Source: Thermoanaerobaculia bacterium
Lineage (GTDB): Bacteria > Acidobacteriota > Thermoanaerobaculia > Thermoanaerobaculales > Sulfomarinibacteraceae
Reading direction: 5' to 3'
Assembly: GCA_027061805.1 (NCBI GenBank)
Contig: JAMOWA010000005.1
Location: forward strand, 1 to 64,000
DNA length: 64,000 nucleotides
The translations under genes were made by a program, and so were the position numbers. The notes beneath the pieces were generated by a model. The model did no database searches, was not told where the DNA came from, and saw nothing but the letters and a program-made list of their open reading frames with translations. Shown piece by piece: positions 1 to 19,485 of the stretch (the first letter of the stretch is position 1; every line of letters begins with the position of its first letter).

Positions 1-326
1 TAAGGCAGACGAAACCCACCAGACCGAGTCGCCAAGGCTCCGATGGCCAGTCATCGGTGCAAGAACGCCCCGGCAATCTTGAGATTGCCAGTCGTCCGTG
101 TCGGGATGCTTTCCTTCGCCTTGGTACCTCCAACGGTCTCCTCCCCACATCCTTTTCACCGGAATCCTCTATATTGCTTCTGTGGAGACAATCTCTCTCG
201 AAGCTCAACCGTTTCGTCCACGCGGGGAGATCGGTGGCCTGTCATCCAGATCCCCCTGTCTCTCCGAGCCCCTGACCAGCCTCAGGCAGTGTCAACTTGC
301 TGGAACCCTGTTGGATCAGGTGCTCC
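1..326. other. Gene-free AT-richer leader before the flippase gene
   Basis: I recognise no gene here. One forward frame stays open from the window edge to about 275, but its translation is rich in Ser, Pro and Arg and resembles nothing I know, so I do not call it. The stretch holds one perfect dyad (72-89, arms GGCAATCT/AGATTGCC around TG), which could be an operator or a small hairpin. Base composition matches the AT-richer genes downstream and not the roughly 70 percent GC of the rest of the window. Confidence 0.4.
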
Positions 327-1910
327 ATGGCTTCAATCGAAAAGACGACCGTCATGCGTGATTCCGAGCAGCAGGGCACACGACCTCAAGAACGCTCCGT
401 GTCACAGTTCGTCGTGCGAGGCACCATCTTTCGCACCATGACATTCGCGCTCACAGCCCTCGTGGGTCTTCTATTGATGCCATTCATAGTGCACTCTCTC
501 GGGAACCGCTCCTATGGCATGTGGGCACTCGTGGGCTCCATCTTGAACTATTTTTCTCTTTTCGATCTTGGCATCTCATCAGCCGTCGAACGCTTTGTCT
601 CACGGGCTCTGGGCCAAGAAGACATCCCAGCTGCCAATACCATCATCAGCTCGGCGACATTTCTCTTCACAGGACTAGGATTAGCCTTGATCACTCTGGT
701 CATTCTGACAAGTGTCTCGATCCCATTTCTGATACATGATACCCACGACGGTATCCTCTTGGGACAGATCATCCTCATCGTCGGGTTGGGACTCGGCTTT
801 ACGTTCCCCGGGCGGGTTTTTGAGGGACTGTTCTCGGCTCAACTACGACAAGACGTTCTTTCAACTGTCTGGATCATCGTTCTCATTTGTCGCACACTCA
901 TCATCATAATGGTCTTGAGACTCGGTTGGGGGTTGAAAGGCCTCGCCCTCGCCACCTCCATATCCATTGTTGTTCGTTATGTCATACTTATTGCTCTGGG
1001 CAGAAAATCTCATCCGTGGCTCAGCATATCTCTCCACCTTTGCCGACGGCATCGCATTCAAGAACTCCTTGGGTATGGGCTGGTCGGTTTTCTCAATCGA
1101 ATTGGAGATTTTCTCCGTTTTCACCTCGACAATATCGTCATCGGCTCATTTCTGGGGCTCACCCCCATCACGCTCTACACAATCCCAGTCAAGCTCTTGG
1201 AATACTTCACAAACTTCATGCTAAGTGCGGTTGGATTCGTGGCACCCGTCTTCAGCAGGTATGAAGGCCTAGGTGAATCCAAAGCATTGAAAAACCGTTT
1301 CTTGGATATCACTAGAGTGTCCACCATTGCGGCAACATTCGTGGGAAGTAGCCTCCTCTTCTATGGGAAACCCTTCATCACACGCTGGATGGGCGAAGCA
1401 TATACCTCGAGCTATGATGTATTGTTGATGTTGGGTGTGCCGGCGATCTTTTCATTGATGTCGAATCCAAGCATTAGCTTACTTTACGGCATTTCGAAAC
1501 ATCACTACTATACTATTGCCAATATCCTCGAAGGATTTACAAATCTGTCATTGAGCCTCTTACTCGTCAGACAGTATGGGATTTATGGGGTCGCTCTCGG
1601 CACGGCCATCCCCATGATAATCTTCAAACTCGGAATTCAGCCCATCTACACCTGTCGTTCGATCAAGTTGGATCTTCGGAGGTACTATAGAATCCTCTTC
1701 TTTACGACGCTCAAATCATTCCTTCCAATCATGGTGTACTACATGGCCATTCAACGCCTTCTCGGGCCAACATTTATATCGATGTTCCCGATCTGGATTG
1801 GACAAACGATACTATTTCTTCCCATCGCGTGGAGATATATTCTTCGCCCAAGGGATCGGCGGACTATCAAATCCGCTCTTTCCCCTGATCGGACAGTACG
1901 ATGTTCATGA
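327..1910 (+). CDS. Polysaccharide flippase (Wzx/MATE-like membrane protein)
   Basis: This is a 527-residue membrane protein of the polysaccharide biosynthesis/flippase superfamily, expected to move lipid-linked glycan units across the inner membrane. About 12-14 hydrophobic segments are visible, starting near residue 40. The early segment with LGNRSYGMWAL followed by FDLGISSAVERFVS is typical of this superfamily (a Gly-rich loop, then a conserved DLG motif). I chose the ATG at 327; an ATG at 354 is equally possible, and a TTG 30 bases upstream is less likely. The gene leads the AT-rich group with the CDP-ribitol synthase and polyol-phosphate transferase, so its cargo is probably a surface glycan of that locus. 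No substrate can be read from the sequence. Confidence 0.85.
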   Translation: MASIEKTTVMRDSEQQGTRPQERSVSQFVVRGTIFRTMTFALTALVGLLLMPFIVHSLGNRSYGMWALVGSILNYFSLFDLGISSAVERFVSRALGQEDIPAANTIISSATFLFTGLGLALITLVILTSVSIPFLIHDTHDGILLGQIILIVGLGLGFTFPGRVFEGLFSAQLRQDVLSTVWIIVLICRTLIIIMVLRLGWGLKGLALATSISIVVRYVILIALGRKSHPWLSISLHLCRRHRIQELLGYGLVGFLNRIGDFLRFHLDNIVIGSFLGLTPITLYTIPVKLLEYFTNFMLSAVGFVAPVFSRYEGLGESKALKNRFLDITRVSTIAATFVGSSLLFYGKPFITRWMGEAYTSSYDVLLMLGVPAIFSLMSNPSISLLYGISKHHYYTIANILEGFTNLSLSLLLVRQYGIYGVALGTAIPMIIFKLGIQPIYTCRSIKLDLRRYYRILFFTTLKSFLPIMVYYMAIQRLLGPTFISMFPIWIGQTILFLPIAWRYILRPRDRRTIKSALSPDRTVRCS

Positions 1911-2016
1911 TTGAACACGATAGATCCAGAACGATCTGGAGATTCTGAAGAATGAATGTGAAAGCACAATTGTCTCTCAGGGCGCACACAGGAGAGAAGA
2001 AAGGAGTTCTCCCATT

Positions 2017-3384
2017 ATGAAAAACTTTGCTGTAGTCCTTGCGGGTGGCCTCGGAACAAGAACCGGTTACGATACCGCAAAACAGCTTCTCAAGATCGGC
2101 GGCAAGCCCGTCATGCACTTCGTAATGGATGTGTTGGAAGCTCATCCAAGAATCGATGGCATCGTACTCGTGGTCAATCCCGCCATTAGAAAGGAGGTCC
2201 AGACTCTGCTTCCGTCCACACGATATCGCAAACTCATGAAGATCGTTGATGGCGGAGAATCGCGGCTGGACAGCTCCAGAATCGGAGTCCGCTCCATACC
2301 AGAATCTCAAGGGAACGTCCTGATTCACGATGCCGTCCGGCCCTTCATGAGCTCCAGAATCATTGATGCTATCCTGAACGCTCTCGAGGCCTACAGTGCA
2401 GTCGACGTCGCCATCGAGCCAACGGACACCATCATCCGAGTCGATGAGCACGACCTGATCGAAGAAATTCCGGACCGTGCAGTCCTGAGGAGAGGGCAGA
2501 CCCCACAAGGATTCCGGCTTGACGTCATCAGAGAGGCTCACACGCTCGCAGTGCGGGAAGGCCAGGTTCGTGTGACCGACGACTGTGGCTTGGTCCTGAG
2601 GTACGGGCTGTGCAAGGTATTCGTCGTCCCAGGTGAGCGGACTAACATCAAGATCACATACCCTGAAGACCTTTACCTTGCCGACCGCATTTTCCAGCTC
2701 CGCGGAGACACCTTGCACGAAGATGTTGATCTCCACAGGCTTGAAGGATCTGTCCTGGCCGTGATTGGAGGTACCCGTGGCATCGGCAAGGCCATCGTAA
2801 AACTTGGACGAGCCCATGGCGCACGAGTATTCCCCTGCAGTAGGGCGACGGGTGTCGATGTCGCTAACCATGAATCCATAAGTAAATTTCTGAAACGTCT
2901 CCAGGAACAAGAAGAACTCATCCACCATGTCTTCAACTGTGCGGCTGTTCTGCGCAAGGGGCGCCTTGACCAACGATCCCCGGAGGAACTCAGGGAGGAA
3001 GTCGAAATCAACTACCTTGGTGCTCTCAACCTCATCGTGGCCGCCCTTCCCTATCTCCGGCAGACCAGGGGATCCATCACTCTGTTCACGTCAAGTTCCT
3101 ATACCCGTGGACGTCCTTTCTATGTAACCTACTCCTCGGCAAAGGCAGCCATCGTGAATCTCGTCCAGGGACTCACGGAGGAACTCGAAACCGAGGGTAT
3201 CACGATCAACGCCATCAACCCGGAACGATCGGCAACTCCCATGAGATTTGAGAACTTCGGAGAAGAGCCGCCGGAAACTCTTCTGAAACCCGAAGAAGTT
3301 GCATTGGCCGCACTTAAGACCGCCATTGCCCCAATTTCGGGAATGGTGATTGACGTGAGAAGATCCCGCCAGACGAGCGCATGA
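2017..3384 (+). CDS. Bifunctional CDP-ribitol synthase (IspD-like cytidylyltransferase fused to SDR reductase)
   Basis: Two domains are fused in 455 residues. Residues 1-230 are an IspD/TarI-type cytidylyltransferase: an N-terminal LAGGLGTR nucleotide loop, the K of TAKQLLKIGGKP, and VLIHDAVRPF. Residues 245-455 are a short-chain dehydrogenase with the cofactor loop GGTRGIGKA and the catalytic YSSAK. The same order is known from Bcs1/Acs1 of Haemophilus influenzae capsule loci, where the reductase converts ribulose-5-phosphate to ribitol-5-phosphate and the transferase makes CDP-ribitol. That function is inferred here by family and by the polyol-phosphate transferase encoded next. A good AAAGGAG ribosome site lies 12 bases before the ATG. 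Base composition is much lower in GC than in most of the window. Confidence 0.85.
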   Translation: MKNFAVVLAGGLGTRTGYDTAKQLLKIGGKPVMHFVMDVLEAHPRIDGIVLVVNPAIRKEVQTLLPSTRYRKLMKIVDGGESRLDSSRIGVRSIPESQGNVLIHDAVRPFMSSRIIDAILNALEAYSAVDVAIEPTDTIIRVDEHDLIEEIPDRAVLRRGQTPQGFRLDVIREAHTLAVREGQVRVTDDCGLVLRYGLCKVFVVPGERTNIKITYPEDLYLADRIFQLRGDTLHEDVDLHRLEGSVLAVIGGTRGIGKAIVKLGRAHGARVFPCSRATGVDVANHESISKFLKRLQEQEELIHHVFNCAAVLRKGRLDQRSPEELREEVEINYLGALNLIVAALPYLRQTRGSITLFTSSSYTRGRPFYVTYSSAKAAIVNLVQGLTEELETEGITINAINPERSATPMRFENFGEEPPETLLKPEEVALAALKTAIAPISGMVIDVRRSRQTSA

Positions 3385-3400
3385 GGGTCTTTAGGTGTTG

Positions 3401-4534
3401 ATGATACGACGGTTACTGCAACGACCTGCCTTGACTTTCGCAGGCATGGTCAGGAGGGCCTTGGGGAAAAGAGTCTCTGAAGAAAAGCCCCGTATCCTCA
3501 TCGACTGCATTGAGTTTTTTCATTTCCTGCACGTGGGACCTCTCGTCGACCGTCTCATCGAAGAAGGGCGGGTCACTGTGTACCTCCTGAAGAATCCCAC
3601 TCTCGGGGAGGCGGATATCCTCAGAATCAGAAGACCTGGCTTGAGACTTGTCTCTCCCATGAAAGTGAAATTTCTCAGTTTCGACGTCACGATCTCTCTG
3701 GATTTTTCCCAGCTCGTGTCCATACCTTCTAAGGGAACGTGGGCCTTTCTACCTCACGGGGATGGAATGAAGGCCCATTACACGGGCTCAGCCGAACTTG
3801 GGAAATACGACACCGTGTTCGCCCTAACGCGCTCTCAGGCACGGCTTCAGAGATCGTTCATTAACCACGGGGCGCAGGTGGTAGAGCTCGGCTTAATGAT
3901 CGGGGACCGTTTGACAGGCGAGCCAGTATCAGAGGACCAGCGACGACAGCTTCAAAGAAAGCTGGGATTGAAGCCCGAGCTTCCTGTTGTGCTCTATGCA
4001 CCCTCATGGTCCATCGATGATCATCATGTCATAATGAACCACATGCTGCTCCAGAGCCTCATGGAGCAGGATGAATTCAACGTCATCCTCAAACCCCATC
4101 CCAATCTACTGATACCAGAACGATGTGGCGGCAGGGATTGGGTAAGTGTCTTTCGTGCCATGCAGAGGGACAACTTCGTTGCAATCACGGACCGGAGCTC
4201 TCCCGTCTACGAATTCATGCCACATGCCGATGTCCTACTGTCGGACATCAGTTCGGTGGTCTTCGAGTTCCTTTTTCTCGATAAACCAATCGTGCTCCAC
4301 CTTAGAAAAGATGTGCTGAGAGAAATCGGTGGAGAAGCATACCTCCATGAAATTCTCCCTTCCATAGCACTGGCCGAGAAGAACGAAGAGGTCCTGCAAA
4401 AACTCAGGGAAGAAATCCGATCACCTCATACCCGCTCGGGAGCGAGGCGTCGTCTCCTCGAGGAGCGTTTCTTCAATGTCGGTCACGCAACCGAGCGGAC
4501 CACGGAGTGGATCTACTCGGTAACAGGAGCATAG
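3401..4534 (+). CDS. CDP-polyol phosphotransferase (TagF/TarL-like, Glyphos_transf family)
   Basis: The roughly 377-residue protein carries the hallmarks of CDP-glycerol/CDP-ribitol:poly(polyol-phosphate) transferases: HGDGMK near residue 125, YAPSW near 200, KPHPN near 235, and SDISSVVFEFLFLDKP near 285. The family transfers polyol-phosphate from a CDP carrier to a growing polymer at the cytoplasmic membrane. With a CDP-ribitol synthase encoded 16 bases upstream, the donor is most likely CDP-ribitol. ATG 3401 is used; GTG 3395 and TTG 3398 are in-frame alternatives directly before it. Only one transferase is present, so primer and polymerase roles cannot be separated. The gene shares the low GC of its neighbours. 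Confidence 0.85.
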   Translation: MIRRLLQRPALTFAGMVRRALGKRVSEEKPRILIDCIEFFHFLHVGPLVDRLIEEGRVTVYLLKNPTLGEADILRIRRPGLRLVSPMKVKFLSFDVTISLDFSQLVSIPSKGTWAFLPHGDGMKAHYTGSAELGKYDTVFALTRSQARLQRSFINHGAQVVELGLMIGDRLTGEPVSEDQRRQLQRKLGLKPELPVVLYAPSWSIDDHHVIMNHMLLQSLMEQDEFNVILKPHPNLLIPERCGGRDWVSVFRAMQRDNFVAITDRSSPVYEFMPHADVLLSDISSVVFEFLFLDKPIVLHLRKDVLREIGGEAYLHEILPSIALAEKNEEVLQKLREEIRSPHTRSGARRRLLEERFFNVGHATERTTEWIYSVTGA

Positions 4535-4588
4535 ATAGCAACGTCCTCCACAGGGGAAAGATGCCGGCGGGTTCCAGCCAATCAGTCC

Positions 4589-4612
4589 TTTTCACCTGGA
4601 TTTTCACCTGGA
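4589..4612. repeat. Perfect tandem 12-bp repeat across a stop codon
   Basis: The 12-mer TTTTCACCTGGA occurs twice head to tail (4589-4600 and 4601-4612). The second copy contains the stop codon of the reverse-strand glycosyltransferase (4604-4606), so one repeat unit extends the 3' end just past that gene. It lies in the 69-base gap between two convergent genes and may be a slippage product. Confidence 0.8.
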
Positions 4613-5617
4613 AGATATTGGGACAATGAACTTTCGTTTCCAGAGGGCACAGCGAGCATACAATCCTGGAAACCTGGAGAACAGCCTGTATGTCCAGAGT
4701 TTCCAGTCCTTTCTGGTCCAGTTCATACCTGCCGCTGTCCACTGCCGGGCTGCGCGGGGATCCCCAGTGGACAGAACGGCGTAGGCAGCCTCACGACAGA
4801 GAACTCCCATACGTCGGCGGAATCGGGGATCCCTCGCCAATCCGGGATGCCGATTCACTACCCGGCAGAGCACCTCGTAGGTCGAGGCCGCCATCATGCC
4901 GAGATCAGTACTTGTCTGGCTTGCATGGAACCTACACCAAACAAGACTCTTCTGAAGCAACGGAAAAGGACCACCGACCTCAAGCAGCCTGAACCAGCAA
5001 TCGTAGTCCTCGGCTCCTGAAAGAGACTCATCGAACCCCCCAGCATCGAGGATCACCTTTCTTTTCACAAGGATTGCCGCCGTGGCAAACAATGGACGGA
5101 GTGCCAACTCTGCAATGTTCACCACATCAGGCAGGCTTTCTCCACGGAGCGGCCAGGAGGGGAATCGTTCACGATTCTCGCGAAGCTCCTGTTCCCCGAG
5201 AGGGACGAGCGGTGCCCGAAATGCGGTGGCCCGACAGGCAACCGCAACGGCATTGGAATCGAGGGCTGCCTGGAGAAGCACGCTGATACATGAGGAAGAC
5301 AGAATATCGTCATCGTCCAGGAACAGAATCCATTCACCCGTGGCCTCGGCCATTCCTCTGTTGCGAGCAGCTCCATGCCCCTGCGGGGACTGCCGGAGGC
5401 TTCTGACTCTTCCATCTTCAGACGAGAGGACCCGAAGAACTGCAGGGGTGTCGTCATCGGAACCATCGTCCACCACGAGAACTTCCAGGTATTTGTGGGT
5501 CTGCCCCGTTGCCGAGCGGACGGCCGAGGGAAGTACCTTCACTCGATTTCGTGTGGGGATGACGATCGAGACACTGTTCGATTCCCTTGCCGGTGCCTTC
5601 GGAATCGTGAATTTCAT
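4604..5617 (-). CDS. Family 2 glycosyltransferase
   Basis: This 337-residue soluble GT-A fold enzyme has the GT2 landmarks in order: SIVIPTRNR at residues 17-25, VVDDG at 48-52, GHGAARNRGM near 80-89, and the metal-binding LDDDD at 100-104, then GGFDESL and EDYDCWFRLL further on. These residues bind a nucleotide-sugar and divalent metal. The C-terminal third is basic and has no membrane segment. It reads towards the capsule-like genes, tail to tail with the polyol-phosphate transferase, and shares their lower GC. It probably adds a sugar to the repeat unit or linkage of that polymer; the sugar is not predictable. Confidence 0.9.
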   Translation of the reverse strand: MKFTIPKAPARESNSVSIVIPTRNRVKVLPSAVRSATGQTHKYLEVLVVDDGSDDDTPAVLRVLSSEDGRVRSLRQSPQGHGAARNRGMAEATGEWILFLDDDDILSSSCISVLLQAALDSNAVAVACRATAFRAPLVPLGEQELRENRERFPSWPLRGESLPDVVNIAELALRPLFATAAILVKRKVILDAGGFDESLSGAEDYDCWFRLLEVGGPFPLLQKSLVWCRFHASQTSTDLGMMAASTYEVLCRVVNRHPGLARDPRFRRRMGVLCREAAYAVLSTGDPRAARQWTAAGMNWTRKDWKLWTYRLFSRFPGLYARCALWKRKFIVPISSR

Positions 5618-5820
5618 GGCATGGCCTCTAACGGGTAAACCACGGAAACGTCGCAGAAAACATCTGGCACATGCAAGGAGTCTGCGCTCCGAGAAGGGTT
5701 TGCGGTTTTCCAGTCGGTCCTGGATCCGGCATCACGAAACTCTTCCGTCCTTTCCCCTCAGAGCGTTTTGCGCCCCCCCTCACCGCAACCCTCACAGTCC
5801 ACGGCAGGCTATCCTGGGGC

Positions 5821-6921
5821 ATGGCCATCTCCATCGGCTTCGACGCCCGGGCAGCCGTGCTCGACCCCCACCGGGGTCTTGGGCGGGTCGCGGCGAGCCT
5901 TGCGGAGGCCCTCCTCGGCCGGGAGGACGTGGTGACGACGATCTTCGTGCCGCGAAGCTCTCATGATATTTCCGGACGATGGTACCGGGACGCCGCCCGG
6001 ATCGTCCACCTGCCCCAGCCACGCCGTGGGGCGTTCCTCTGGGACGGGCCCGCCTGGCGGTGGGTACTGCGGCACCATCCCGTGGATGTCCTCCACCTGC
6101 CCGCATGGGGTGTGCCGCCTGGGGTCCCGCTCCCCGTGGTGGCCACCCTCCACGACGTGACGCCGCTGCGCGTCCCGGAGTCGATCCGCTCGCGCCGGGT
6201 GCGCCGGCGCGCGGTCCAGCGGCTCGGGACCCACCACCGCGCCACGCTGGTCCACGCAGTCTCCCGCGCCACGGCCCGGGACGCCGTCCACGTCCTCGGC
6301 CTCCCACCCGACCGGATCCGGGTCGTCCACAACGGCGTTGCTCTTCGCGAAGCACGGGAGGCTTGCGGTGAGCGCCGCCACGTCTTGTTCGTGGGTGGCG
6401 CCGACCCCCACAAGCGCGTGGACCTGCTCGTCCGTGCGTGGTCCCTGGCGGAGGCCGCCGGTCTCCCGCCGCTCGTGGTGGCCGGCGGGGCTGCCCGGGA
6501 CCCCGGGGTGGTGGAGGCGGCCCGCCGCCATCCGGACCGGATCCGTGCGGCCGGCATCGTGGACGACGGGGAGCTCGAGGCGCTGTACGGGGGCGCGCTG
6601 GCCGTGCTCCTGCCCTCCCTGTGGGAGGGCTACGGCCTGCCCGCGGCCGAGGGCATGGCCCGGGGCGCCGTCCCCGTCCTCACGGCCCGGGCCTCGCTGC
6701 CCGAGGCCGGCCGGGACGCGGCGCTCTACCTTCCCGCCGGGGCCGGGCCCCTGGAATGGCTCGCCGCCGTCCGCCGGCTCGTGGAAGACCGGGAGCTCCG
6801 CGCCCGGCTGGTGGAACGGGGCCTCCGGCGGGCCCGTGAGAGGACCTGGGAGAGGACCGCGGACGCCCTCGTGGAGGTCTACCGCGAGGCGGTCAGCCGG
6901 TCGCGCAGCGCGCGCTCCTGA
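5821..6921 (+). CDS. Family 4 glycosyltransferase (GT-B fold)
   Basis: The 366-residue GT4 enzyme begins IGFDARAAVLDPHRGLGRVAASL, the usual N-terminal Rossmann half with a Gly-rich acceptor loop. The C-terminal half carries FVGGADPHKRVDLLV and the donor-site SLWEGYGLPAAEGMARG, whose Glu pair is the family EX7E motif. It uses a nucleotide-activated sugar and retains anomeric configuration, by family. ATG 5821 is chosen because homology starts there; the frame stays open 150 bases upstream but reads as non-protein. GC jumps to more than 70 percent from this gene onward. The last 43 bases overlap the end of the convergent spermidine-synthase-like gene. Confidence 0.9.
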   Translation: MAISIGFDARAAVLDPHRGLGRVAASLAEALLGREDVVTTIFVPRSSHDISGRWYRDAARIVHLPQPRRGAFLWDGPAWRWVLRHHPVDVLHLPAWGVPPGVPLPVVATLHDVTPLRVPESIRSRRVRRRAVQRLGTHHRATLVHAVSRATARDAVHVLGLPPDRIRVVHNGVALREAREACGERRHVLFVGGADPHKRVDLLVRAWSLAEAAGLPPLVVAGGAARDPGVVEAARRHPDRIRAAGIVDDGELEALYGGALAVLLPSLWEGYGLPAAEGMARGAVPVLTARASLPEAGRDAALYLPAGAGPLEWLAAVRRLVEDRELRARLVERGLRRARERTWERTADALVEVYREAVSRSRSARS

Positions 6922-9293
6922 GCGAGGATCGCCGGGTCCCTCCGCGCCAGCACGTCGCGCCACGGTACCGGAAGCCCGGCGAACGGGTTGCTCCGGGCCC
7001 GGAAGGCCGCCAGCAATGCCAGGTTGTCGTACCAGGTCCGGTCGCGGTCCAGGACCCGGCCGGAGAGGTACTCGACGACGGGGAGATCGTCCACGTGGGG
7101 CGGGACGTTCCGCGTGAGGAAGGCCACCTCCCGGGGACCCTGGAGGAGGTCGGCCCCCAGCGCCAGGGGCGAGTCCAGACCCGCGATCCGCAGGGACTCC
7201 GCCAGGCGGGGGTCCTCCAGAAGGTTCCAGCGGATCCGGACCGGCCCGGGCTCCACCTGTCCGGTGACCACGGTGAACTCGTTGACCGTGCCCGTGTCGT
7301 GCCACACGACGGTCCGGGGAAAGACCTCCACGAAGGCCCGGAGGATCCTCAGGAAGCTGTCCTGGTCGAGCGAGTAGAGCGGCAGCCACATGGAGACGAT
7401 GCCCCCCGGATTGAGATGCTCGCGGCACAGCCGGAAGTACTCCAGGGTGTAGAGGGTGCTGTTGCCCGCGTACACCGGGTGGATGGAGTCGGAGAGGATG
7501 ACGTCGTAGGTGGCGTCGGTGGCCAGCAGGTAGTTCCTGCCGTCGTTGATGATCGTACGGACCCTGGGGTCGGCCAGCACGTGGTGGTTGATGTGGGCGA
7601 AGAGCCTGTCGGAGGCCCGGAGGACCTCGGGCGAGATCTCCACCACGTCGATACGCTCCACGGGATGCCGGGCCACCGCCCAGCAGGTCCCCCCGGAGCC
7701 GAATCCAACGTGGAGCACCGTCCGCGGCGCTACCACCTGGAGCAGCGGGATCTGTCCCTGCATCTGTTGCACCACCAGGAGCTCCGGCGAGTCACCCGCC
7801 ACGTTGACGCCGTTGAGCTCCAGCGAGAGCCACGAGCCCCGTGCGTCCTCGTAGCGCTTCACCAGCACCGTGGCGGTGACGCTCTCGTCCACCTCCAGGA
7901 GCTCCACACCCTGGCCCATGGCGGCCCGCCGGAGCACCCAGTCCCGGGGCAGGGCCACGCCCACGGCCACGATCACGGCCAGCGTCGCCCACAGGAGCAC
8001 GTGCCGCCGGAGCCGGGGCCACAGCAGGCCGGCGATGCCGAGACTGATCGCCGCGAGCAGGAGCTGGGTCCACTGGCTGCCCAGCAGGGGCACCAGAAGG
8101 AAGGGCGCGGCGAGCGCGCCGAGGATCCCTCCCACCGTGTTCGCCGCGGCCACCCGGGCCACGTGCTCTCCGTCCGGCCTCCGGCCGGGATCCGCGTCCA
8201 CCGCCAGGGGGAAGGAGGCACCGAACAGCAGGGTCACGGGCACGAAGAGCACCAGCACCCCGGTGAAGACCACCGCCTGGAGCCCGGTGAAGGTGAGCGG
8301 CACCCGCAGAAGGCCCGGAACCGCCGAGAGCACCCGGTCCGCGAAACCCAGTCCCACCAGCTGGAGGACCAGCACGAGCCCCAGCCCGAGCTGGAGGGAG
8401 GCCAGGGCCCTCGCCGGCCGGGAGATCCTCCCCGACAGGCCGCGGACCACGAGGCTCCCCAGGGCGATCCCGAGGAGGTAGACCGCCAGGAGCACCGCGA
8501 AGGCGTAGACACGGGACCCCAGGTGGAGCACCAGGATGCGCACCCAGACCAGCTCCGCCGCCAGGGCCACGAAGCCCATGGCGCCCACGAGGGCGAGGTA
8601 GCGCCGGGGAACGGCATTCTGGTCCCCACCCTGGAGGACGACCTCCCCGGCGGGTGAGGGAGGCGGCACGTGTCCCTCGAGCCCCACGGCGCACACCGCC
8701 ACCAGGGCGCAGGCCAGGGCCGCCACGGAGAGGGACCCGCCCTCGCCGAGGCGCGGCAGGAGCACGTAGGCCGCGGTCATGACCCCGGCGAAGGCCCCCA
8801 GCGTGTTGATCCCGTACAGAACGCCCACCTTTCCGGCGAGACGCGATCCCCGGAGCCGTTCCACCAGGAGGGGCAGGGTCAGCCCCATGAGGACCGTGGG
8901 CACCGCCAGCACCAGGACCGCAAGGCCCAGCCGTGCGGCGATCCCGGCCGCCAGGTGCTGCCCGAGGTCCGGCCCCAGCCGGGTCCCGGCGGCGAGCAGC
9001 AACCCGAGGATCACGGGCGAGAGCCCGAAGAACCCCCCGATGGCAGCCTCGGCCAGTCCGTACCACCGCAGGTGGCGGGAGGTCCTGGAGGCCAGCTTCC
9101 CGCCGAGCCACGCCCCTCCCGCCATCCCGCCCATCCAGACCGCCACCACCGCGGAGGCCGCCCACACCGTGTTGCCCAGAACCAGGCCCAGCATGCGCAT
9201 CCAGACCACCTCGCCCACCAGGGCGGTCACACCCGACACGAAGAAGAGCAGGGCCACGAGCACCGGCATGAAGACCTCCAGTTTGCGATTCAT
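6879..9293 (-). CDS. Fused MFS-like membrane protein/spermidine synthase-like protein
   Basis: The 804-residue protein has an N-terminal membrane half of about 12-14 segments beginning FMPVLVALLFFVSGVTALVGEVVWMR. The C-terminal soluble half resembles polyamine aminopropyltransferases: an SAM-type loop VGFGSGGT in place of GGGDGG, VDVVEISPEV with the acidic ribose-binding residue, and DVILSDSIHP. Such fusions are common in deep bacterial lineages, but their substrate is mostly unproven, and the changed loop argues against plain spermidine synthesis. The ATG at 9293 overlaps the stop of the upstream YfhO gene by an ATGA, so the two are probably translationally coupled. It is the last gene of a long reverse-strand envelope series. 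Confidence 0.8.
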   Translation of the reverse strand: MNRKLEVFMPVLVALLFFVSGVTALVGEVVWMRMLGLVLGNTVWAASAVVAVWMGGMAGGAWLGGKLASRTSRHLRWYGLAEAAIGGFFGLSPVILGLLLAAGTRLGPDLGQHLAAGIAARLGLAVLVLAVPTVLMGLTLPLLVERLRGSRLAGKVGVLYGINTLGAFAGVMTAAYVLLPRLGEGGSLSVAALACALVAVCAVGLEGHVPPPSPAGEVVLQGGDQNAVPRRYLALVGAMGFVALAAELVWVRILVLHLGSRVYAFAVLLAVYLLGIALGSLVVRGLSGRISRPARALASLQLGLGLVLVLQLVGLGFADRVLSAVPGLLRVPLTFTGLQAVVFTGVLVLFVPVTLLFGASFPLAVDADPGRRPDGEHVARVAAANTVGGILGALAAPFLLVPLLGSQWTQLLLAAISLGIAGLLWPRLRRHVLLWATLAVIVAVGVALPRDWVLRRAAMGQGVELLEVDESVTATVLVKRYEDARGSWLSLELNGVNVAGDSPELLVVQQMQGQIPLLQVVAPRTVLHVGFGSGGTCWAVARHPVERIDVVEISPEVLRASDRLFAHINHHVLADPRVRTIINDGRNYLLATDATYDVILSDSIHPVYAGNSTLYTLEYFRLCREHLNPGGIVSMWLPLYSLDQDSFLRILRAFVEVFPRTVVWHDTGTVNEFTVVTGQVEPGPVRIRWNLLEDPRLAESLRIAGLDSPLALGADLLQGPREVAFLTRNVPPHVDDLPVVEYLSGRVLDRDRTWYDNLALLAAFRARSNPFAGLPVPWRDVLARRDPAILAQERALRDRLTASR

Positions 9294-11266
9294 TCCGCGG
9301 CGGGTCGCGGTTCCCCTTCCAGGGGGCCCTCCCTGCGGAACCCGGCCACGGCCAGGAGCGCCAGGACCGCGAGGCCCGGCCCCGACACGACCGCGGTCAC
9401 AGGATACCCCGGCGGCCAGTACCGGCCCACGATCCGGTGCGTTCCGGGCCCGAGCGCCACGACCTGGAGGATACCCGGGCCCCGCCCGGGTGCGGCGGGG
9501 CGCCCATCCACGGTCCACCGCCAGCCGCGGAGGGGCGGAAGGGCCAGGCTCAGCCGTGTGGCTCCCCCGGTGACCACCGCCACCTCCACGACGGACGGCG
9601 AGGGCCGGCTGAGCGCCACCACGCCGGGGGCCAGGGGAGCGCCGGGGCGGGGCGGTCCGGACCAGAGCACGGCCTCCGGGAGGGCTCTCCGATTGTCCAG
9701 GAGCCACACCCCACCCCGGGACGCCAGGGGAACCAGCTCACCACCGGGTCGGGGCCGGCCCAGCACCAGGAGCCTCCGCGCCGCCAGGGTGTCCAGCCAC
9801 CAGCGGCCGGCGGGTCCCGCGTCCGCTGCCGCCAGGTGCTCCATGAGGGCCCCGTGGGCCAGCGGTGCCTCGGTCCGCACCAGGGAGACCCCCGCCTTGA
9901 TGTTGGTGTAGCCCACCGGCCACACGCGCCACCGTGAGGGCTCCGCCCCCAGCCAGGCCCTGAGGTGGGGGCCCGTGGGCGGCGTGTAGACCCGTCCGGC
10001 GCTCTCCATCTCCGGCCATGGCCATGGCCCCTCCCCCGGGGGTGCAAGCCCCAGGAGGGGCCATCCCGCCACCACCGCCGCGCCGATCCCCACCACGAGC
10101 GCGACCCAGCGGAGCGTTCTTCCGGCGCGCAACGCAGCCAGGGCCAGCACTCCGGCGGGGAGCACCACGAGGAGGACCCCCAGCGCCCCCCCCGCCAGGG
10201 GAACCAGCGCCAGGGACAGGCCGGCGAGGATCAGCGCCGGCACCCTGCCCCCTCCTCCCAGCCACGTCTCGGCCCCGGTGCCGATGAAGGGCAGGAGGCA
10301 GAACACCGCGAGCACGGCGAAGCGGGACGGGTAGCGCACCATGCCGCCGGTGATCGTCATGTAGAGATCCTCCCCTCCCACAGCGGGCAGCACCGCCAGG
10401 AACAGGAGCGCCGCCGGGATCGCCAGCAGGACGGGACGGCGCCGCAGGCCCAGGACCGCGGCCAGCAGCAGGGGGGCCCCCAGGAAGAGGCTCCCGATCC
10501 AGGGAAAGCCGGTGCCCGGTTCGGGCACCCCGGGGACCAGGAGGCGCGCCAGGCCCGGAGGCGCCACCGCACCGGCCACGACCTCCGCCACGGCCCCCGT
10601 TCCACGGTCCCCCTCCGCCACCCAGGCCGCGAACGGTACCAGCTGGACCACCACCACCACGAGACCGAGGGCCAGCCCCGCCACCACCCGGGGCCGCCGC
10701 AGGCCCAGGAGCAGGGCCAGGCCGCAGCCGAAGACCCACACCACCGGCTCTCCGGCCAGCCATCCCATGGCGCAGGCCGCCGCCAGCGCGGGGACCTGCC
10801 GGCGTCCCTCCATCCTGGAGGCGAGGAGCATCCAGGGCACCCACGCCAGCGCTTCCAGGTTGTTCAGCATGCCCACCAGCCCCAGAACCGCACCGGCGGA
10901 CCACGCAGCGGCCTCGGCGAGGCCGACTCCCACCCCCCCGGCGCCCAGGCGCCGCGCCAGCACACCGATTCCCAGCGCCAGCAGCGCCAGGTGCAGCCCC
11001 ACCTCCATGGTGAGGGCGGTCTCCGATGGAAGCACGAGGTGGGTCCAGCGGGGAGGGTAGAGGAGGCCGGTCTGGGGGTTGGCGAACCAGGCCTCCGTGC
11101 ACCCGTTGAACGGGTTCAGCCATGGCATCTCGCCCCGGGACACGCACCGGGCCGTGGCCTCCCGCATGGGGAGGAAGTACCCGGGAACGTCCCGCGGCAG
11201 GGGAACCCGGCCCACCACCGGAGCCAGCGCCAGTAGCAGTGGAATCCACCAGAGGCGCAACCTCAC
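9290..11266 (-). CDS. YfhO-family polytopic membrane protein (1)
   Basis: This 658-residue protein has about 12 hydrophobic segments, large periplasmic loops near the N-terminus (FLPMREATARCVSRGEMPWLNPFNG), and a C-terminal soluble domain ending in a beta-rich region with GWRWTVDG. This layout fits the YfhO/GT-C superfamily, whose characterised members work in glycosylation of lipid-carried polymers. The GTG start at 11266 is favoured: it forms a GTGA overlap with the preceding stop and has GGAGG seven bases upstream. A second member of the family is encoded at 15954-18329, and both share the LNPF/LVDP plus GEPV loop pattern. Specific activity is unknown. Confidence 0.8.
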   Translation of the reverse strand: MRLRLWWIPLLLALAPVVGRVPLPRDVPGYFLPMREATARCVSRGEMPWLNPFNGCTEAWFANPQTGLLYPPRWTHLVLPSETALTMEVGLHLALLALGIGVLARRLGAGGVGVGLAEAAAWSAGAVLGLVGMLNNLEALAWVPWMLLASRMEGRRQVPALAAACAMGWLAGEPVVWVFGCGLALLLGLRRPRVVAGLALGLVVVVVQLVPFAAWVAEGDRGTGAVAEVVAGAVAPPGLARLLVPGVPEPGTGFPWIGSLFLGAPLLLAAVLGLRRRPVLLAIPAALLFLAVLPAVGGEDLYMTITGGMVRYPSRFAVLAVFCLLPFIGTGAETWLGGGGRVPALILAGLSLALVPLAGGALGVLLVVLPAGVLALAALRAGRTLRWVALVVGIGAAVVAGWPLLGLAPPGEGPWPWPEMESAGRVYTPPTGPHLRAWLGAEPSRWRVWPVGYTNIKAGVSLVRTEAPLAHGALMEHLAAADAGPAGRWWLDTLAARRLLVLGRPRPGGELVPLASRGGVWLLDNRRALPEAVLWSGPPRPGAPLAPGVVALSRPSPSVVEVAVVTGGATRLSLALPPLRGWRWTVDGRPAAPGRGPGILQVVALGPGTHRIVGRYWPPGYPVTAVVSGPGLAVLALLAVAGFRREGPLEGEPRPAAE

Positions 11267-13050
11267 GGGAGAGCCTCCTGGAGCTCCCGCCATTGCCACG
11301 CCGGTGCATACAGGAGGGCGCGCTCGTAGCTCTCCAGCACCCGGCCCCGGAGGCACCGCCGGGCCTCGCGGGCCCGGTCGAAATCGGTCCGCGCCCTCTC
11401 CTCCCTCCCCTGGTCCAGGTCCAGGCGCGCCAGCAGGAGCCAGCCCCCCACGCAGTTGGGCTCGACCTCCACGGCGCGCAGGGCGAACTCCCGGGCCCTG
11501 CCGGCATCCCCCGCCGCCCTCTCCAGCCGCGCCCGGTCCAGCCAGTACCACGGGAGACGGGGCTCGAGCTCACAGGCCCGGCGGAATGCCTCACGGGCCC
11601 GTTCCAGCGTGGCCGGCCACATCCCGAGGTCCCGGAGGATCTTGCCGTTGACCCGGCCTGCGAGGGCCCAGCTGGAAGCCGCACCGGCGTGGACCCGGAC
11701 CACGTGCTCCGACCAGAAGAGGGCCTCACCGGCCTCCTCCCGGCTCCACGCCGCCTTCGCCAGCAGGAACCCGATCCGCCGGCGGGCCGCCAGGTCGTCC
11801 AGGGGTTCCAGCCGCAGCATCGCCAGGACCTCCCTGGCATCTCGGCCGACAGACCTCTGGATCCGAGACAGAGCCGGTACTGCGAAGGACCACACCAGCA
11901 GGGAGCCCATGGATATCGCGCCCACGAGACGTATACCCGGACCGGGAGATGTTCTCCTGGGATGGCGCCCCTTCTGGAGTCGAGGCAAGGTGGCAGCCAG
12001 GAGTGCAGCCCACCACCACAGCACCACCGGCACCTCCACGAAGTCGTGCAGAGCCGCCATGACACTCATCGCAGCGAGCAGGGCCCAAGTCCCACGGTCG
12101 CCGGTGACCCGGACCTCCCGGAGCTCCTGGCGTGCGAACCAAGCTCCCACGAGTACGACAAGCACGCCCACGAGGCCAACCGCTGCCACGAAACCCAGAA
12201 ACGTGGACTCCGCCACCACAGCCCGGCGAGCGTGGAGGGCACAGTGTGTGGGAGTCGTCAAGCGGACCACGCCCATGGCATCCGCAAATCCCCCGGGACC
12301 CACTCCCAGCCACGGTGAGTCCATCAGCCGCCGAAGGACCGCCCCCCAAATCCTCGGCCGATACCAGGCCAGAGCATCGGGCTGGAGGTGAAAGCGCAAC
12401 CAGAGCAGCCCTCCCCCGGCTAGGCCCAAGACACCGCCGGCAATCCACCGAACCCTCCCCTTCGGTACCAGCAGCAATGTCCCAATCACCACAGCAAGGA
12501 CGCCCGCTCTGGAACCTGTCAGGCCGATCCCCAGGATCATGAGGCCTGCCATGGACCACGCGAGCCACTCCCGACGCCGGACCAGCGGAAACACGACAGG
12601 TACAAGCAGAGCTGCAGCCACGTTGGGGTTCTCGAAGAATCCCCCGGTTCGCAGGGTCCGCTCGCCCAACGCTCCGAGTAGGATACCGACCGCCACAATC
12701 CCGCCCGCTGCTGTCATGGGCCACGGCACTCCCGGCTCCCCACTATTTCCGCCATTTCGGAGCAGCATGAGGACCACCACTGCCCCCAGCCATCCACCGA
12801 CAGCCTCCTTGCCTCCCAGGGGCCAGGTACCAACGAGAAGCACATCCAATCCCGCCCAGGCCACCAGCGCCCAGCAGGCGAGTTCGATCCTGTCCGGCCT
12901 TCGGTAGCGCCACATGAGAATCGCTCCGAGGAGTGCCAGACCCAGCCCTGCCATCACCTGCTCTTTTGGATAGAAGGCACCCCCCGCAACGCCCACTGCG
13001 GCCACGAAACCCGCAGCGAGGAGGACATGGAGGGAAAGAGACTCTCTCAC
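11263..13050 (-). CDS. O-antigen ligase/polymerase-like protein with C-terminal TPR region
   Basis: The 595-residue protein has an N-terminal membrane part of about 11-12 segments and a C-terminal TPR-like helical region from about residue 430. In the large periplasmic loop, PWLGVGPGGF is followed by THCALHAR and AESTFLGFVAAVGLVG, the usual pattern of Wzy_C ligases and O-oligosaccharyltransferases (a conserved His, then E...G.G). It would transfer or polymerise undecaprenyl-linked glycans in the periplasm. GTG 13050 overlaps the upstream stop by GTGA. GC is a little lower here (11.9-13.0 kb) than in the flanking genes. It could be a WaaL-type ligase, a Wzy polymerase or a PglL/PilO-type protein transferase. 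Confidence 0.75.
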   Translation of the reverse strand: MRESLSLHVLLAAGFVAAVGVAGGAFYPKEQVMAGLGLALLGAILMWRYRRPDRIELACWALVAWAGLDVLLVGTWPLGGKEAVGGWLGAVVVLMLLRNGGNSGEPGVPWPMTAAGGIVAVGILLGALGERTLRTGGFFENPNVAAALLVPVVFPLVRRREWLAWSMAGLMILGIGLTGSRAGVLAVVIGTLLLVPKGRVRWIAGGVLGLAGGGLLWLRFHLQPDALAWYRPRIWGAVLRRLMDSPWLGVGPGGFADAMGVVRLTTPTHCALHARRAVVAESTFLGFVAAVGLVGVLVVLVGAWFARQELREVRVTGDRGTWALLAAMSVMAALHDFVEVPVVLWWWAALLAATLPRLQKGRHPRRTSPGPGIRLVGAISMGSLLVWSFAVPALSRIQRSVGRDAREVLAMLRLEPLDDLAARRRIGFLLAKAAWSREEAGEALFWSEHVVRVHAGAASSWALAGRVNGKILRDLGMWPATLERAREAFRRACELEPRLPWYWLDRARLERAAGDAGRAREFALRAVEVEPNCVGGWLLLARLDLDQGREERARTDFDRAREARRCLRGRVLESYERALLYAPAWQWRELQEALP

Positions 13051-14618: not shown

Positions 14619-14803
14619 ACATTCAGCGTAGCAGAGAGTCCTGGTGGTCATTCGGCGCCGTGGCACCGGCCCTGCACTCGCCCTGCATCCGGTGGCGGAA
14701 CACGAGGAGAGGCAACGGTCGTGAGCATCACCGGCACCCGGGGTGCAGATCCATGTCACGGCCACCTCCTCTTCACCCCTTTTCCTCTTCACCTCTTCAC
14801 AAG
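14619..14803. repeat. Intergenic spacer with CTCTTCAC short repeats
   Basis: No gene is seen between the terminator and the ligase start. The part at about 14766-14800 holds three copies of CTCTTCAC in a pyrimidine-rich run. The same TTCAC-type heptad/octad repeats recur in the spacer at 27705-27741. Confidence 0.5.
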
Positions 14804-14828
14804 AAAAAGGAGGCGCCGAAGCGCCTCC
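14804..14828 (-). terminator. Rho-independent terminator after the pilin gene
   Basis: Read on the reverse strand, GGAGGCGC and GCGCCTCC form a perfect 8-bp stem closed by a TTCG tetraloop, followed at once by TTTTTCTTG. It lies 25 bases past the pilin stop codon and should end the pilin transcript, separating it from the ligase genes downstream. Confidence 0.85.
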
Positions 14829-14853
14829 CGACGATTCACGGTCCGGTGACCGA

Positions 14854-15303: not shown

Positions 15304-15341
15304 TCTGGGGTCCTCCTTTCCCTGTTCGGGACCTTGATATT

Positions 15342-15357: not shown

Positions 15358-15369
15358 TGTGTCATCGGG

Positions 15370-15415: not shown

Positions 15416-15429
15416 AGTGGCGCCACGTG

Positions 15430-15885: not shown

Positions 15886-15899
15886 GACGTACGAGCCCA

Positions 15900-15953: not shown

Positions 15954-18329
15954 ATGAGCGACTCTTCCGGAAGACGGTTCCACGATCGGGCGCTCCAGGC
16001 ACTCGCGCTGGTGGCGCTGTTGGTGCTCCTCTACATCCCCGGTCTGCTCACGGGCCGGATCCTCTGCTTCCGGGACAACCTCTCCCATCACCTGGGGTGG
16101 CGCCTCGCCGCTGCCGGGCGGATGGCGGCCGGAGAGCTCCCCCTGGTGGACCCCGTGATGGGCGGGGGAGCACCCCTCCTGGCCGATCCCAACACCATGG
16201 TGCTCTACCCCACGACGGCCCTCTTCTTCGTTCTGCCACCCGCTCTGGCCCTGACGCTGCACTACCTCCTCCACCAGCTCCTCCTGGGCCTCGGGGGGTT
16301 CCTGCTGCTGCGGCGGCTCGGCCGGGGGCCGCTCCCCGCACTCGTGGGTGCCACCTTTCTCGCCGGCGGGGGCCTGGCCTTCTCCCAGCTGGCCTTCACC
16401 AACGCAGCGGCCGCTCTGGCCTGGGCTCCGTGGATCGCCTGGACCGCCGCCGGCCGGTCCGTCCCGGCCGGGGACCTCCGCCGGCGGGTCGCTCTGGGGG
16501 GGCTGTTCGGAGCGCTGTCCCTCCTGGCCGGAGAACCCGTCATCACCCTCCTCTCCTGGATGCTCTGGGCCGTGGTACTGCTCTCGGGCGGAGTGGGCGG
16601 GAACCGGGAGCACCCGGGGCGCCGCGCCGGTCTGCTGGCGGCCCCCCTCCTCGCCCTCCTCCTCGCCGCGCCGGTCCTGCTGCCGGCTGCCGCGATCCGG
16701 GCCGAGAGCCGGCGCCACGTCATCGGGCTGCCGGAGGGCTCCGCCGGCGCCGACGCCTTCCGGCCCCTGCGGTGGCCCGAGCTGCTCCTGCCCCACCTCC
16801 ACGGCGCCCCCGGACCGTTCGCACCCGACGGGTTCTGGGCCCGCCCGACCTTCGGGTGGCTCCGCTACGAGGTCAACCTCCACCTGGGCACCCTCGCCCT
16901 CGTCCTGGTCTTCATGGGAATGCGTGGCAGGAAAAGCAGGATCTGGACCGTCACGACAGCCGGTGCTGCATTCCTCGCCGCCAGCGCCGGACTCCTCGAA
17001 AGACTTGCACAGGTGGTTCCCGCAGCGGGAGAGCTCCGGTACGTCATCAAGTTCCTGCTGCTGGCCCACCTGGCCCTGGCGCCGCTGGTGGCCAGGGGGG
17101 CGGTCGAGGCCCTGCGCCACCGGAAACGGTTCCGGCGGGTTTCCGCAGGCGCTGCGGCGGTTCTCCTGGTGCTGGCCGTTCCACTGAGCACCCCGGGAGG
17201 CGCCCGCCGCCTCCTCTCCCGCCTTGCGCCCGCCTCCAGGGCCAACCTGGAGGCGCCCGGCGTGGCCCGGTCGGTGGCCGCCTCCGTCCGGCGGGACCTG
17301 GCCACGGGCCTCCTCCCCCTGGCGGCGGCCGCCGTGGCGCCCCGGCTCCTCCTCCTGCCGGCGCTGGCCCTCCAGCTGGCCGCCGGGGGGGCCTCCATGC
17401 TCATCTGGGACACGCCCGGGCCGTACCTCGAACCGCCTCCCCTGGCCTCCCGCCTCGGCGACGACACCCGGGTCCTCGAAGCCGTGGGCTTCCGGTTCGA
17501 CACGCTCCACACCTCGGGCGATCCGGAGCTCGCCGCACCGGTCCGCCGGGCGCGCCTCGGAGCCGCCCAGCTCTGGCGCTACTACGGTGGCCTGCACGGG
17601 CTCCGGTACCGCGGGGCCGTGGGACCCGACGGCATGGAGCCCTGGTGGGTGGCCGACGCCGCCCGGCGCCTGAGGGCCTCGCCCCCCGCCGCCGTGGCCC
17701 ACGCCGCCCGCCACCTGGGCGCGGCCTGGATCCTCCACCACGAGGAGCTCCCCGGCTCCCCCGACGTGACGGCCACCGAGAGCCTCGAGGTCCTGGGCGA
17801 ACCCGTGGTGCTCCACCGTCTCGCCAGGCCCGTCCCGGCCGCCTGGCTCGCGGCCCGGGAGATCACCGCGGCCTCGCGGGACGCCGGGTGGCAGCTCCTC
17901 CTGGACCCCTCCGTGGAACCCGGCCGGGACGCCGTCACCCCCGGGAGGGTGCCGGGGCTCCGGAACCGGGGCGGCGGCACGGTGACCGTGGAGCTCAGGC
18001 GCCCGGACCGGTGGCGGCTCGTCACACGCGTGGCGGGCGAGGGCCTGCTGGTCCTCGACCAGGCCTATTCCGACCTGTGGCGGGTCACCGTGGACGGCCA
18101 CGACGTGGAGCCCGTCCTGGTGAACCTCTGGCAGCTGGGGATCCGCGTTCCCGCAGGGGAGCACCGCATCGAGGCGTGGTGGTCCAGGGGACCGTTCGCA
18201 CGGGGCGTGCTGCTGGCCATCCCCGGCCTTGCCCTCACCCTCCTCCTTCTGGTTCTTCCCAGTCGGGGCCGTCGGCCTCCCACCGGTGGGGAGGTGCCCA
18301 CACGCCGGGAAGGTCCCGGGATGCCGTGA
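15954..18329 (+). CDS. YfhO-family polytopic membrane protein (2)
   Basis: This 791-residue protein has about 13 hydrophobic segments, with an early periplasmic loop RDNLSHHLGWRLAAAGRMAAGELPLVDPVMGGGAPLLADP and a C-terminal beta-rich region containing LLVLDQAYSDLWRVTVDG, which is characteristic of bacterial YfhO proteins. The family is placed in the GT-C glycosyltransferase superfamily by membrane layout. It is divergent from the pilin genes and convergent with the Wzt gene, sharing its last 95 bases with that gene. It is longer than the relative at 9290-11266 by about 130 residues, mostly in the C-terminal soluble part. The exact sugar donor and acceptor are unknown. Confidence 0.82.
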   Translation: MSDSSGRRFHDRALQALALVALLVLLYIPGLLTGRILCFRDNLSHHLGWRLAAAGRMAAGELPLVDPVMGGGAPLLADPNTMVLYPTTALFFVLPPALALTLHYLLHQLLLGLGGFLLLRRLGRGPLPALVGATFLAGGGLAFSQLAFTNAAAALAWAPWIAWTAAGRSVPAGDLRRRVALGGLFGALSLLAGEPVITLLSWMLWAVVLLSGGVGGNREHPGRRAGLLAAPLLALLLAAPVLLPAAAIRAESRRHVIGLPEGSAGADAFRPLRWPELLLPHLHGAPGPFAPDGFWARPTFGWLRYEVNLHLGTLALVLVFMGMRGRKSRIWTVTTAGAAFLAASAGLLERLAQVVPAAGELRYVIKFLLLAHLALAPLVARGAVEALRHRKRFRRVSAGAAAVLLVLAVPLSTPGGARRLLSRLAPASRANLEAPGVARSVAASVRRDLATGLLPLAAAAVAPRLLLLPALALQLAAGGASMLIWDTPGPYLEPPPLASRLGDDTRVLEAVGFRFDTLHTSGDPELAAPVRRARLGAAQLWRYYGGLHGLRYRGAVGPDGMEPWWVADAARRLRASPPAAVAHAARHLGAAWILHHEELPGSPDVTATESLEVLGEPVVLHRLARPVPAAWLAAREITAASRDAGWQLLLDPSVEPGRDAVTPGRVPGLRNRGGGTVTVELRRPDRWRLVTRVAGEGLLVLDQAYSDLWRVTVDGHDVEPVLVNLWQLGIRVPAGEHRIEAWWSRGPFARGVLLAIPGLALTLLLLVLPSRGRRPPTGGEVPTRREGPGMP

Positions 18330-19485
18330 TCCGTACCCTGGCCGCCTGACACCAGTAGTCGTAGGCCAGGCCGTCCCGGGCGTGGATGGCCACGTCCAGG
18401 AGGTAGTCCCCGGGGGCCAGATCGAGCACGGGGTAGTGGCACCGCACCTCCCCGTCCCGGCTGAGCTCCACCGGCCGGATCCCGTCCAGGACCGTGTTGT
18501 GCCCACCCACATGGCCGCCGTCGGCCCGGTGCCAGGCGATCCCGAAGACGAAGTCCGTGACGGGCCGTCTCACGGCGTACCGGATGTGGACCGTGGCGTC
18601 CACCCCCGATGGGATCACCTTCAGGGGCACGCCTCCGCTGCTCACCACGACCTCACGGATCTCCACGTCCCCCGTGCCCCACCGCCTCCCCTCCTCCACG
18701 ACGCGGACCCTCTCCTGTTCCGCCGAGGGGACCTGCTCGTCCTCGGCAACGTCACTCCGGTACCGGGCCACCACGGCATCGGCGGCCCCCTCGGCCACCA
18801 TGCGACCGTCCCGCAGGTAGAGGGCGCGGTCGGCCAGCGAGCCCACCAGGTCCAGGTCGTGGGACACGATCACCAGGCTCACTCCGCCCCGCCGCAGGTG
18901 GGCGATCCGGTCCAGGCACCTCCGGGTGAAGGCCTCGTCCCCCACGGCCAGGACCTCGTCCACCAGGAGGACATCGGGGTCCACGGCCACCGCCACCGCG
19001 AACCCCAGACGGACGAACATCCCGGAAGAGTAGGTCTTGACCGGCTGGTCGATGAACTCGCCGATCTCGGCGAAGCGGACGATCTCCTCCAGGCGGTCCT
19101 CCACCTCCCGCCGGCCCAGCCCCAGCAGCATCCCGTTGATGATCACGTTCTCCCGGCCCGTGATCTCCGGGTGGAACCCGGCGCCCAGCTCGATGAGGGC
19201 GGTGACCCGACCCTCCACCTCCACGCTGCCACGGGATGGCTTGAGGATGCCCGTGATCAGCTTCAGCACGGTGGATTTCCCCGACCCGTTGGGACCGATG
19301 AGCGCCACGGCCTCCCCGGGGCCCACCTCCAGGTCCAGGTCCTCCACCGCCGTGAACCCCTCCGCGAGCCCACCCCGGAGGAGATCACCGTGGAGGAGGG
19401 CTCCCTTGAGGCTGTGGAGGCGGCCCCTCCGGCCCCTCCGGGGGAAGGTCTTCGTGACGCCGGCCAGCCGGATGCGCCCGCTCAC
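18235..19485 (-). CDS. wzt: Polysaccharide ABC exporter ATP-binding protein (Wzt-like)
   Basis: The 416-residue ATPase has Walker A GPNGSGKST (64-72), signature YSSGM (152-156), Walker B DVLLVDE (171-177) and switch H209, all typical of the TagH/KpsT/Wzt group. Residues about 255-416 form an extra beta-rich domain like the Wzt C-terminal domain that reads the end of the O-polysaccharide chain. With the permease encoded just upstream, it exports undecaprenyl-linked polysaccharide. GTG 19485 overlaps the permease stop by GTGA and has GGAGG close upstream; an earlier ATG in frame is not needed. The 3' end overlaps the convergent YfhO gene by 95 bases, which encode the last 30 or so residues of both proteins. 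Confidence 0.9.
   Translation of the reverse strand: MSGRIRLAGVTKTFPRRGRRGRLHSLKGALLHGDLLRGGLAEGFTAVEDLDLEVGPGEAVALIGPNGSGKSTVLKLITGILKPSRGSVEVEGRVTALIELGAGFHPEITGRENVIINGMLLGLGRREVEDRLEEIVRFAEIGEFIDQPVKTYSSGMFVRLGFAVAVAVDPDVLLVDEVLAVGDEAFTRRCLDRIAHLRRGGVSLVIVSHDLDLVGSLADRALYLRDGRMVAEGAADAVVARYRSDVAEDEQVPSAEQERVRVVEEGRRWGTGDVEIREVVVSSGGVPLKVIPSGVDATVHIRYAVRRPVTDFVFGIAWHRADGGHVGGHNTVLDGIRPVELSRDGEVRCHYPVLDLAPGDYLLDVAIHARDGLAYDYWCQAARVRITASRDLPGVWAPPHRWEADGPDWEEPEGGG

Follow-up and report, generated by a model that had tools for sequence, protein, structure and literature searches.

The first 5.6 kb of a 64,000-base stretch of DNA from a Thermoanaerobaculia bacterium (Acidobacteriota; family Sulfomarinibacteraceae) form an AT-rich block with genes for a flippase, a cytidylyltransferase-SDR fusion, a PF04464 transferase and a GT2 glycosyltransferase. 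This block occupies a variable slot within a conserved polysaccharide locus of the Wzy type. The block itself is probably a horizontally exchanged polyol-phosphate cassette, and the locus one for a surface polysaccharide (O-antigen or exopolysaccharide). The whole stretch, here called the window, comprises positions 1-64,000 of contig C5 (JAMOWA010000005.1; 65,905 b) in assembly G000 (GCA_027061805.1), the source genome (3.10 Mb, 68 contigs, completeness 96.85%).

Foreign composition in a variable slot

GC content is 53.2% over positions 1-5640, against a mean of 70.9% (standard deviation 1.2, minimum 68.5) in 38 other segments of 5640 b. The break is sharp and, within the first 12 kb, is best placed at 5769, which confirms the original prediction of a low-GC stretch to about 5.6 kb followed by DNA of more than 70% GC. 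GC at third codon positions (GC3) is 0.571 in the flippase gene, 0.607 in the fusion, 0.602 in the PF04464 gene and 0.599 in the GT2 gene. It is 0.893 in the adjoining GT4 glycosyltransferase gene (5821..6921, plus strand, callable from 5671; PF13439, PF00534) and 0.884 (standard deviation 0.056) in 28 open reading frames (ORFs) from the remaining window, a mean biased upward by their selection at GC3 >0.75. The synonymous-codon distance to 24 host ORFs is 0.33-0.39 for the four cassette genes and 0.100 for the GT4 gene; left out one at a time, the host ORFs themselves reach a mean of 0.116 and a maximum of 0.175, so that the cassette genes stand at about three times the mean. The four genes thus have foreign codon usage and no match to that of the host, while the next gene is host-like.

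The GT4 gene is a conserved border of the slot, with orthologues in 6 of 20 family genomes and copies 60-73% identical in five other family genomes. The cassette is far rarer: flippase orthologues and the full fusion each occur in 2 of the 20, and the full fusion in 2 of 37 genomes of the order. In G008, from another genus of the same family, homologues of all four cassette genes adjoin the same GT4 gene, with identities of 53% (flippase), 63% (fusion), 50% (PF04464), 54% (GT2) and 63% (GT4). The order inside that slot differs, with the fusion, PF04464 and GT2 genes inverted relative to the flippase and one additional GT4 present. The slot is empty in G013, where two border glycosyltransferases lie ~100 bases apart, and in G007, of the same genus as G008, it is occupied by GT2 genes together with an unnamed 727-aa ORF at host GC. 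These four genomes, with G000 included, are the informative ones; G006 is cut at the border GT4, and G014 keeps only one side, without the far flank.

The other flank of the slot lies on contig C14 of the same assembly, which carries a PF00953 transferase, a GT2 and a GT4 gene (identities ~70%, 65% and 42-47%). With the initiating PF00953 transferase joined by synteny, flippase, Wzy-type polymerase/ligase and initiating enzyme are all present in one locus. C14 terminates in a copy of window positions 1-114, which belong to the repeat that opens C5 (1..126, plus strand). This copy of a dispersed repeat of ~129 bp, with imperfect terminal inverted repeats, bounds the AT-rich stretch on the left and is the likely cause of the contig break. 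Its extent comes from alignments, and positions 1-114 have 23 matches in the genome, five of them identical over 114 b. The element resembles ERIC or MITE repeats, and it folds no better than shuffled sequences (z -1.14). Position 1 of the window is not a biological edge; it is the start of a contig inside a repeat. A unique join of C14 and C5 by sequence overlap was also rejected, since the overlap is this repeat, found as well on the ends of C43 and C44. The join is argued from synteny for that reason, and gene content supports C14 as the probable left neighbour, the overlap alone being no proof.

The repeat is common to the ends of C14, C43, C44 (loci L174, L198 and L197) and C5, and the contigs break there. 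ORF inspection, made without a family search, found no polysaccharide genes in the stretches of C43 and C44 that were read. On C14, two overlapping minus-strand frames of 402 and 248 aa (14118-15937), between the GT2 and GT4 genes, have no Pfam match and could together represent a single, frameshifted membrane protein. An integrase or further capsule genes had been proposed as things to look for on this left-hand side. Polysaccharide genes are present on C14. Pfam scans of ORFs from the cassette, the GT4 side and the C14 end, small ORFs excluded, found no integrase or transposase, and the ~129-bp repeat was the only such border element seen.

Enzymes of the cassette

All four gene families originally named were confirmed by Pfam. 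The fusion (2017..3384, plus strand) joins a cytidylyltransferase (PF01128, 3.2e-51) to an SDR reductase (PF00106, 4.4e-26), and its structure model has a pLDDT (predicted local distance difference test) of 90.8. The cytidylyltransferase motif residues R15, K22, D105, R154 and K212 are invariant across 26 fusions, as are the glycine-rich loop (G251, G255, G257) and the Tyr-x-x-x-Lys pair (Y372, K376) of the SDR half. Three further residues, D130, G160 and C190, are TarI-type. They recur in 41, 43 and 43 of 43 other fusions, respectively, and at none of the three positions in the 11 stand-alone IspDs of the family. In alignments, the solved TarI-type proteins 4jis and 3f1c carry the same three residues, a set that Bacillus subtilis IspD (5ddt) does not share. 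Six further stand-alone homologues, from other sources, give a mixed picture, with C190 in 3/6 and G160 and D130 in 0/6. We infer that these positions set substrate specificity. Together with genome context, considered below, the residues support the predicted fused synthase as a probable CDP-polyol synthase, with CDP-ribitol (a CDP-pentitol) as its most likely product.

The design has a described counterpart. Bcs1 of Haemophilus influenzae combines two activities in a single protein, an NADPH-dependent reduction of ribulose-5-phosphate and activation of the resulting product by CTP, and in types b and a of that species Bcs1/Acs1 feed a TagF-like transferase domain, there within Bcs3 (excerpt of PMC10299916). 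H. influenzae combines a large multidomain polymerase with an ABC-exported capsule, whereas the present locus has a single 379-aa transferase, a Wzx-like flippase and Wzy-type genes. The likeness to Bcs1 is one of described function, for which fusions from Proteus (40% identity) and Parabacteroides (45.5%) served as sequence stand-ins. Among the 50 structures listed for the fusion model, human ISPD (4cvh) gives the only alignment spanning both domains (478 columns), which suggests the same two-part architecture, although ISPD is eukaryotic and the match is distant (17% identity, TM-score 0.50 by query, root-mean-square deviation 10.1). ISPD produces CDP-ribitol, according to the title of PMC4873967.

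The next gene (3395..4534, plus strand) encodes a divergent, TagF-like PF04464 protein, a predicted polyol-phosphate transferase, at 61.5 bits against a cut-off of 22.1. Its histidines H121 (PHGDGMK) and H235 (KPHP) align, at low identity, with the WHG and HP motifs of relatives. With TagF, TarL and Cps3D it shares the two conserved histidines and, in its model, the GT-B fold. TagF is the top fold match of its model (mean pLDDT 66; E 5.5e-12), followed by TarL with CDP-ribitol (8va1), the capsule multienzyme 8a0m and Cps3D (8qoy); TagF, TarL and Bcs3 are thus among the matches. These lend modest support to the transferase assignment, modest because the alignment behind the model held, besides the PF04464 relatives that made up most of it, two epimerases and one sub-threshold row.

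The remaining two genes encode a Wzx-like lipid-linked oligosaccharide flippase (357..1910, plus strand; PF13440 1.6e-14, PF01943 2.9e-14), which may start at a TTG at 297 or an ATG at 357, and a GT2 glycosyltransferase (4604..5617, minus strand; PF00535 6.1e-32). In the proposed pathway, the SDR half of the fusion would reduce D-ribulose-5-phosphate to D-ribitol-5-phosphate, and the TarI-type half would join this to CMP to give CDP-ribitol; a different pentitol could take the place of ribitol. The PF04464 enzyme would then transfer polyol-phosphate from CDP to a sugar of a lipid-linked repeat unit, to which the GT2 enzyme would add a sugar. The flippase would move this unit across the membrane for polymerisation by Wzy-type proteins of the core. 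A ribitol-phosphate polymer had been predicted originally; the polyol-phosphate transferase is supported, and for the product a Wzy-made repeat carrying one polyol-phosphate group is at least as good a fit as a chain of the TagF type.

Origin of the cassette and competing readings

The fusion is rare in the phylum, as the original prediction held for this kind of Gram-negative. Among 396 sampled genomes, each scored for only four candidates, eight match it at 1e-50, four of these over the full fusion; PF04464 is present in 28/396. Named relatives come from Bacillota, Cyanobacteriota/Melainabacteria, Pseudomonadota, Chlamydiota, archaeal bins and others, and the tree and neighbourhood analyses used 45 of 80 such loci, chosen because they span both halves, although a few are truncated, with L093 and L103 among those excluded. 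In a tree of 47 fusions built by a quick method, the window and G008 proteins are sisters (support 100; long stem, 0.65) inside a clade that mixes phyla (support 97). The phylogeny had been proposed as a check on foreign origin: it does nest the fusion among mixed phyla, but its sister is from the same family. PF04464 occurs above cut-off within 8 kb of the fusion in 14 of 31 non-chlamydial named loci, and a LicD-like gene in five others. Matches that an iterated profile had placed in L064 and, in one case, L067 were rejected as PF04464 neighbours, being UDP-GlcNAc 2-epimerases by Pfam, and one in L051 fell below the Pfam cut-off, which lowered the count from 15 to 14.

Searches of plasmids and phages yielded nothing close to the fusion, with best identities of 45.5% and 35.1%, respectively. 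The plasmid match, in Parabacteroides distasonis (NZ_OY725790.1, annotated 'bifunctional cytidylyltransferase/SDR family oxidoreductase'; 45.5% over 99%), is the same fusion and lies in a polysaccharide locus among sugar-transporter, Wzy and GT2 genes, with a LicD-family gene in place of PF04464. The 14 chlamydial loci (L077-L101) form a clade of their own (support 100). Two archaeal bins (L070 and L071; Methanomassiliicoccales and 'Euryarchaeota') have high-GC copies of the fusion, one of them adjoining a LicD-like gene.

Several points weigh against the reading of the block as an exchanged polyol-phosphate cassette. The PF04464 match covers profile positions 147-362 of 367 and leaves the N-terminal third uncovered, PHG replaces WHG, and every NCBIfam equivalog cut-off is missed, the best being TarF at 29.6 against 550 bits. 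The protein therefore has neither the WHG motif nor the equivalog-level score of TagF/TarL teichoic acid polymerases, and the 'TagF/TarL-type' of the original prediction holds at the level of the family, with a divergent member. The fusion misses the NCBIfam ribitol model (143.1 vs cut-off 166) and its fold search lists IspD first, above TarI, which leaves the substrate unsettled as far as fold and model scores go. Neither PF04464 nor LicD lies within 8 kb in 12 of the 31 non-chlamydial loci, several of them short contigs, or in any of the 14 of the chlamydial clade. Finally, the C14-to-C5 join is inferred from synteny and the slot comparison draws on just four informative genomes.

The same evidence bears on how the cassette arrived. 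Recent insertion of a genomic island that came from a distant donor and was new to the lineage would account for the un-ameliorated composition (GC3 0.57-0.61 vs 0.88 in the host), the presence of the cassette in just two of 20 family genomes and the nesting of the fusion pair among mixed phyla. We regard it as unlikely, however, as the same slot in G008 holds all four homologues, the two fusions are sisters, the scanned ORFs include no integrase, and the divergence of the cassette (50-63%) falls inside the range of the flank genes in G000 and G008, from 43% (Wzy-type) to 71% (PF00953 transferase). Recent acquisition, as first proposed, is thus plausible for this genome from its foreign composition, but the cassette is not new to the family. 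The tree placement with G008 and the un-ameliorated codon usage make it likeliest that slot cassettes were exchanged within or near the family after the split of G000 and G008, from a lower-GC relative; inheritance from their common ancestor is less likely. A mis-binned or chimeric piece of another organism would fit the contig-end position and the 18-point difference in GC, yet it is very improbable given that the block is continuous with the host-like GT4 and core genes, that the other flank is on C14 of the same assembly and that G008 has a homologous cassette beside the same GT4.

Two further alternatives concern the product of the fusion. That it is the isoprenoid IspD of the organism, with an unrelated reductase attached, has in its favour a score just above the NCBIfam ispD cut-off (186.4 vs 181.3) and the fact that a search of the assembly turned up no other full IspD-like protein. 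No DXR was found in this genome, however, and two HMG-CoA reductase matches were, which makes a CDP-ribitol-type synthase likelier than an isoprenoid IspD; the TarI-type residues and polysaccharide neighbours also oppose it, and G008 has a stand-alone IspD in addition to its fusion. It is the least probable of the readings. HMG-CoA reductase was found in G000, G013 and G014 and not in G007 and G008, both of which have a stand-alone IspD, which suggests that members of a single family use different isoprenoid routes. The cassette may otherwise work as proposed with arabinitol or another pentitol as its polyol: CDP-arabinitol pathways with similar parts exist. The TarI-type residues and the two-activity design shared with the CDP-ribitol synthase Bcs1 (described in part of PMC10299916) make this quite unlikely.

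The wider locus and its significance

Beyond the border GT4, a minus-strand gene for an MFS-spermidine-synthase-like protein (6879..9707; PF01564) has counterparts of 67% and 60% identity in G013 and G014, where it also adjoins the border GT4; it was not seen there in G007 and G008. An automatically called ORF that overlaps it (9293..11551, minus strand) encodes an unnamed protein of the conserved core, with 45-56% identity to five family genomes and no Pfam match. The core continues on the minus strand with a TPR-containing gene (11266-13050; 44% identity to G008) and a Wzy_C O-antigen ligase/polymerase family gene (13050-14888; PF04932 3.9e-9, 43-44% identity to G008). This core also includes, at 14857-15930, a pair of pilin-like genes that are kept in relatives; one of them matches N_methyl and T2SSG. 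Further along the locus are minus-strand exporter genes for Wzt (ABC_tran and Wzt_C) and a Wzm-like protein (ABC2_membrane) at 18238..20279 (PF14524 3.8e-19, PF01061 1.8e-18). No Rfam match was found in window positions 1-6000.

Polyol-phosphate capsules and O-antigens are established in Gram-negatives (excerpts of PMC10299916, PMC3989065 and PMC11666461), and those with ribitol phosphate are known or predicted in Gram-negatives other than this one (PMC10299916 and PMC3989065, in part). The O-antigen locus of Haemophilus parainfluenzae strain 17, for instance, is likewise predicted to add ribitol phosphate, but with two separate CDP-ribitol enzymes and a WefL-like transferase in place of the fusion and PF04464 protein (excerpt of PMC3989065). 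In the collection of papers searched, none joined Acidobacteria and CDP-ribitol. We would put forward as possible, though doubtful, that the PHG-branch PF04464 proteins of the window and G008 are a distinct transferase type that decorates Wzy-type repeats and does not build teichoic chains, and that the slot serves for serotype switching, with exchange among the genera of a single family of Acidobacteriota.

In summary, a cassette in a swappable slot is a rare but already known sort of system, and the findings do not overturn established biology. In automatic annotation, where the present fusion scores above the ispD cut-off, positions 130, 160 and 190 offer a simple test to separate fusions of TarI type from IspD. 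The probable cassette extends CDP-ribitol-type surface chemistry to the little-studied phylum Acidobacteriota and, from the four-genome comparison, adds an antigen-like variable slot there.

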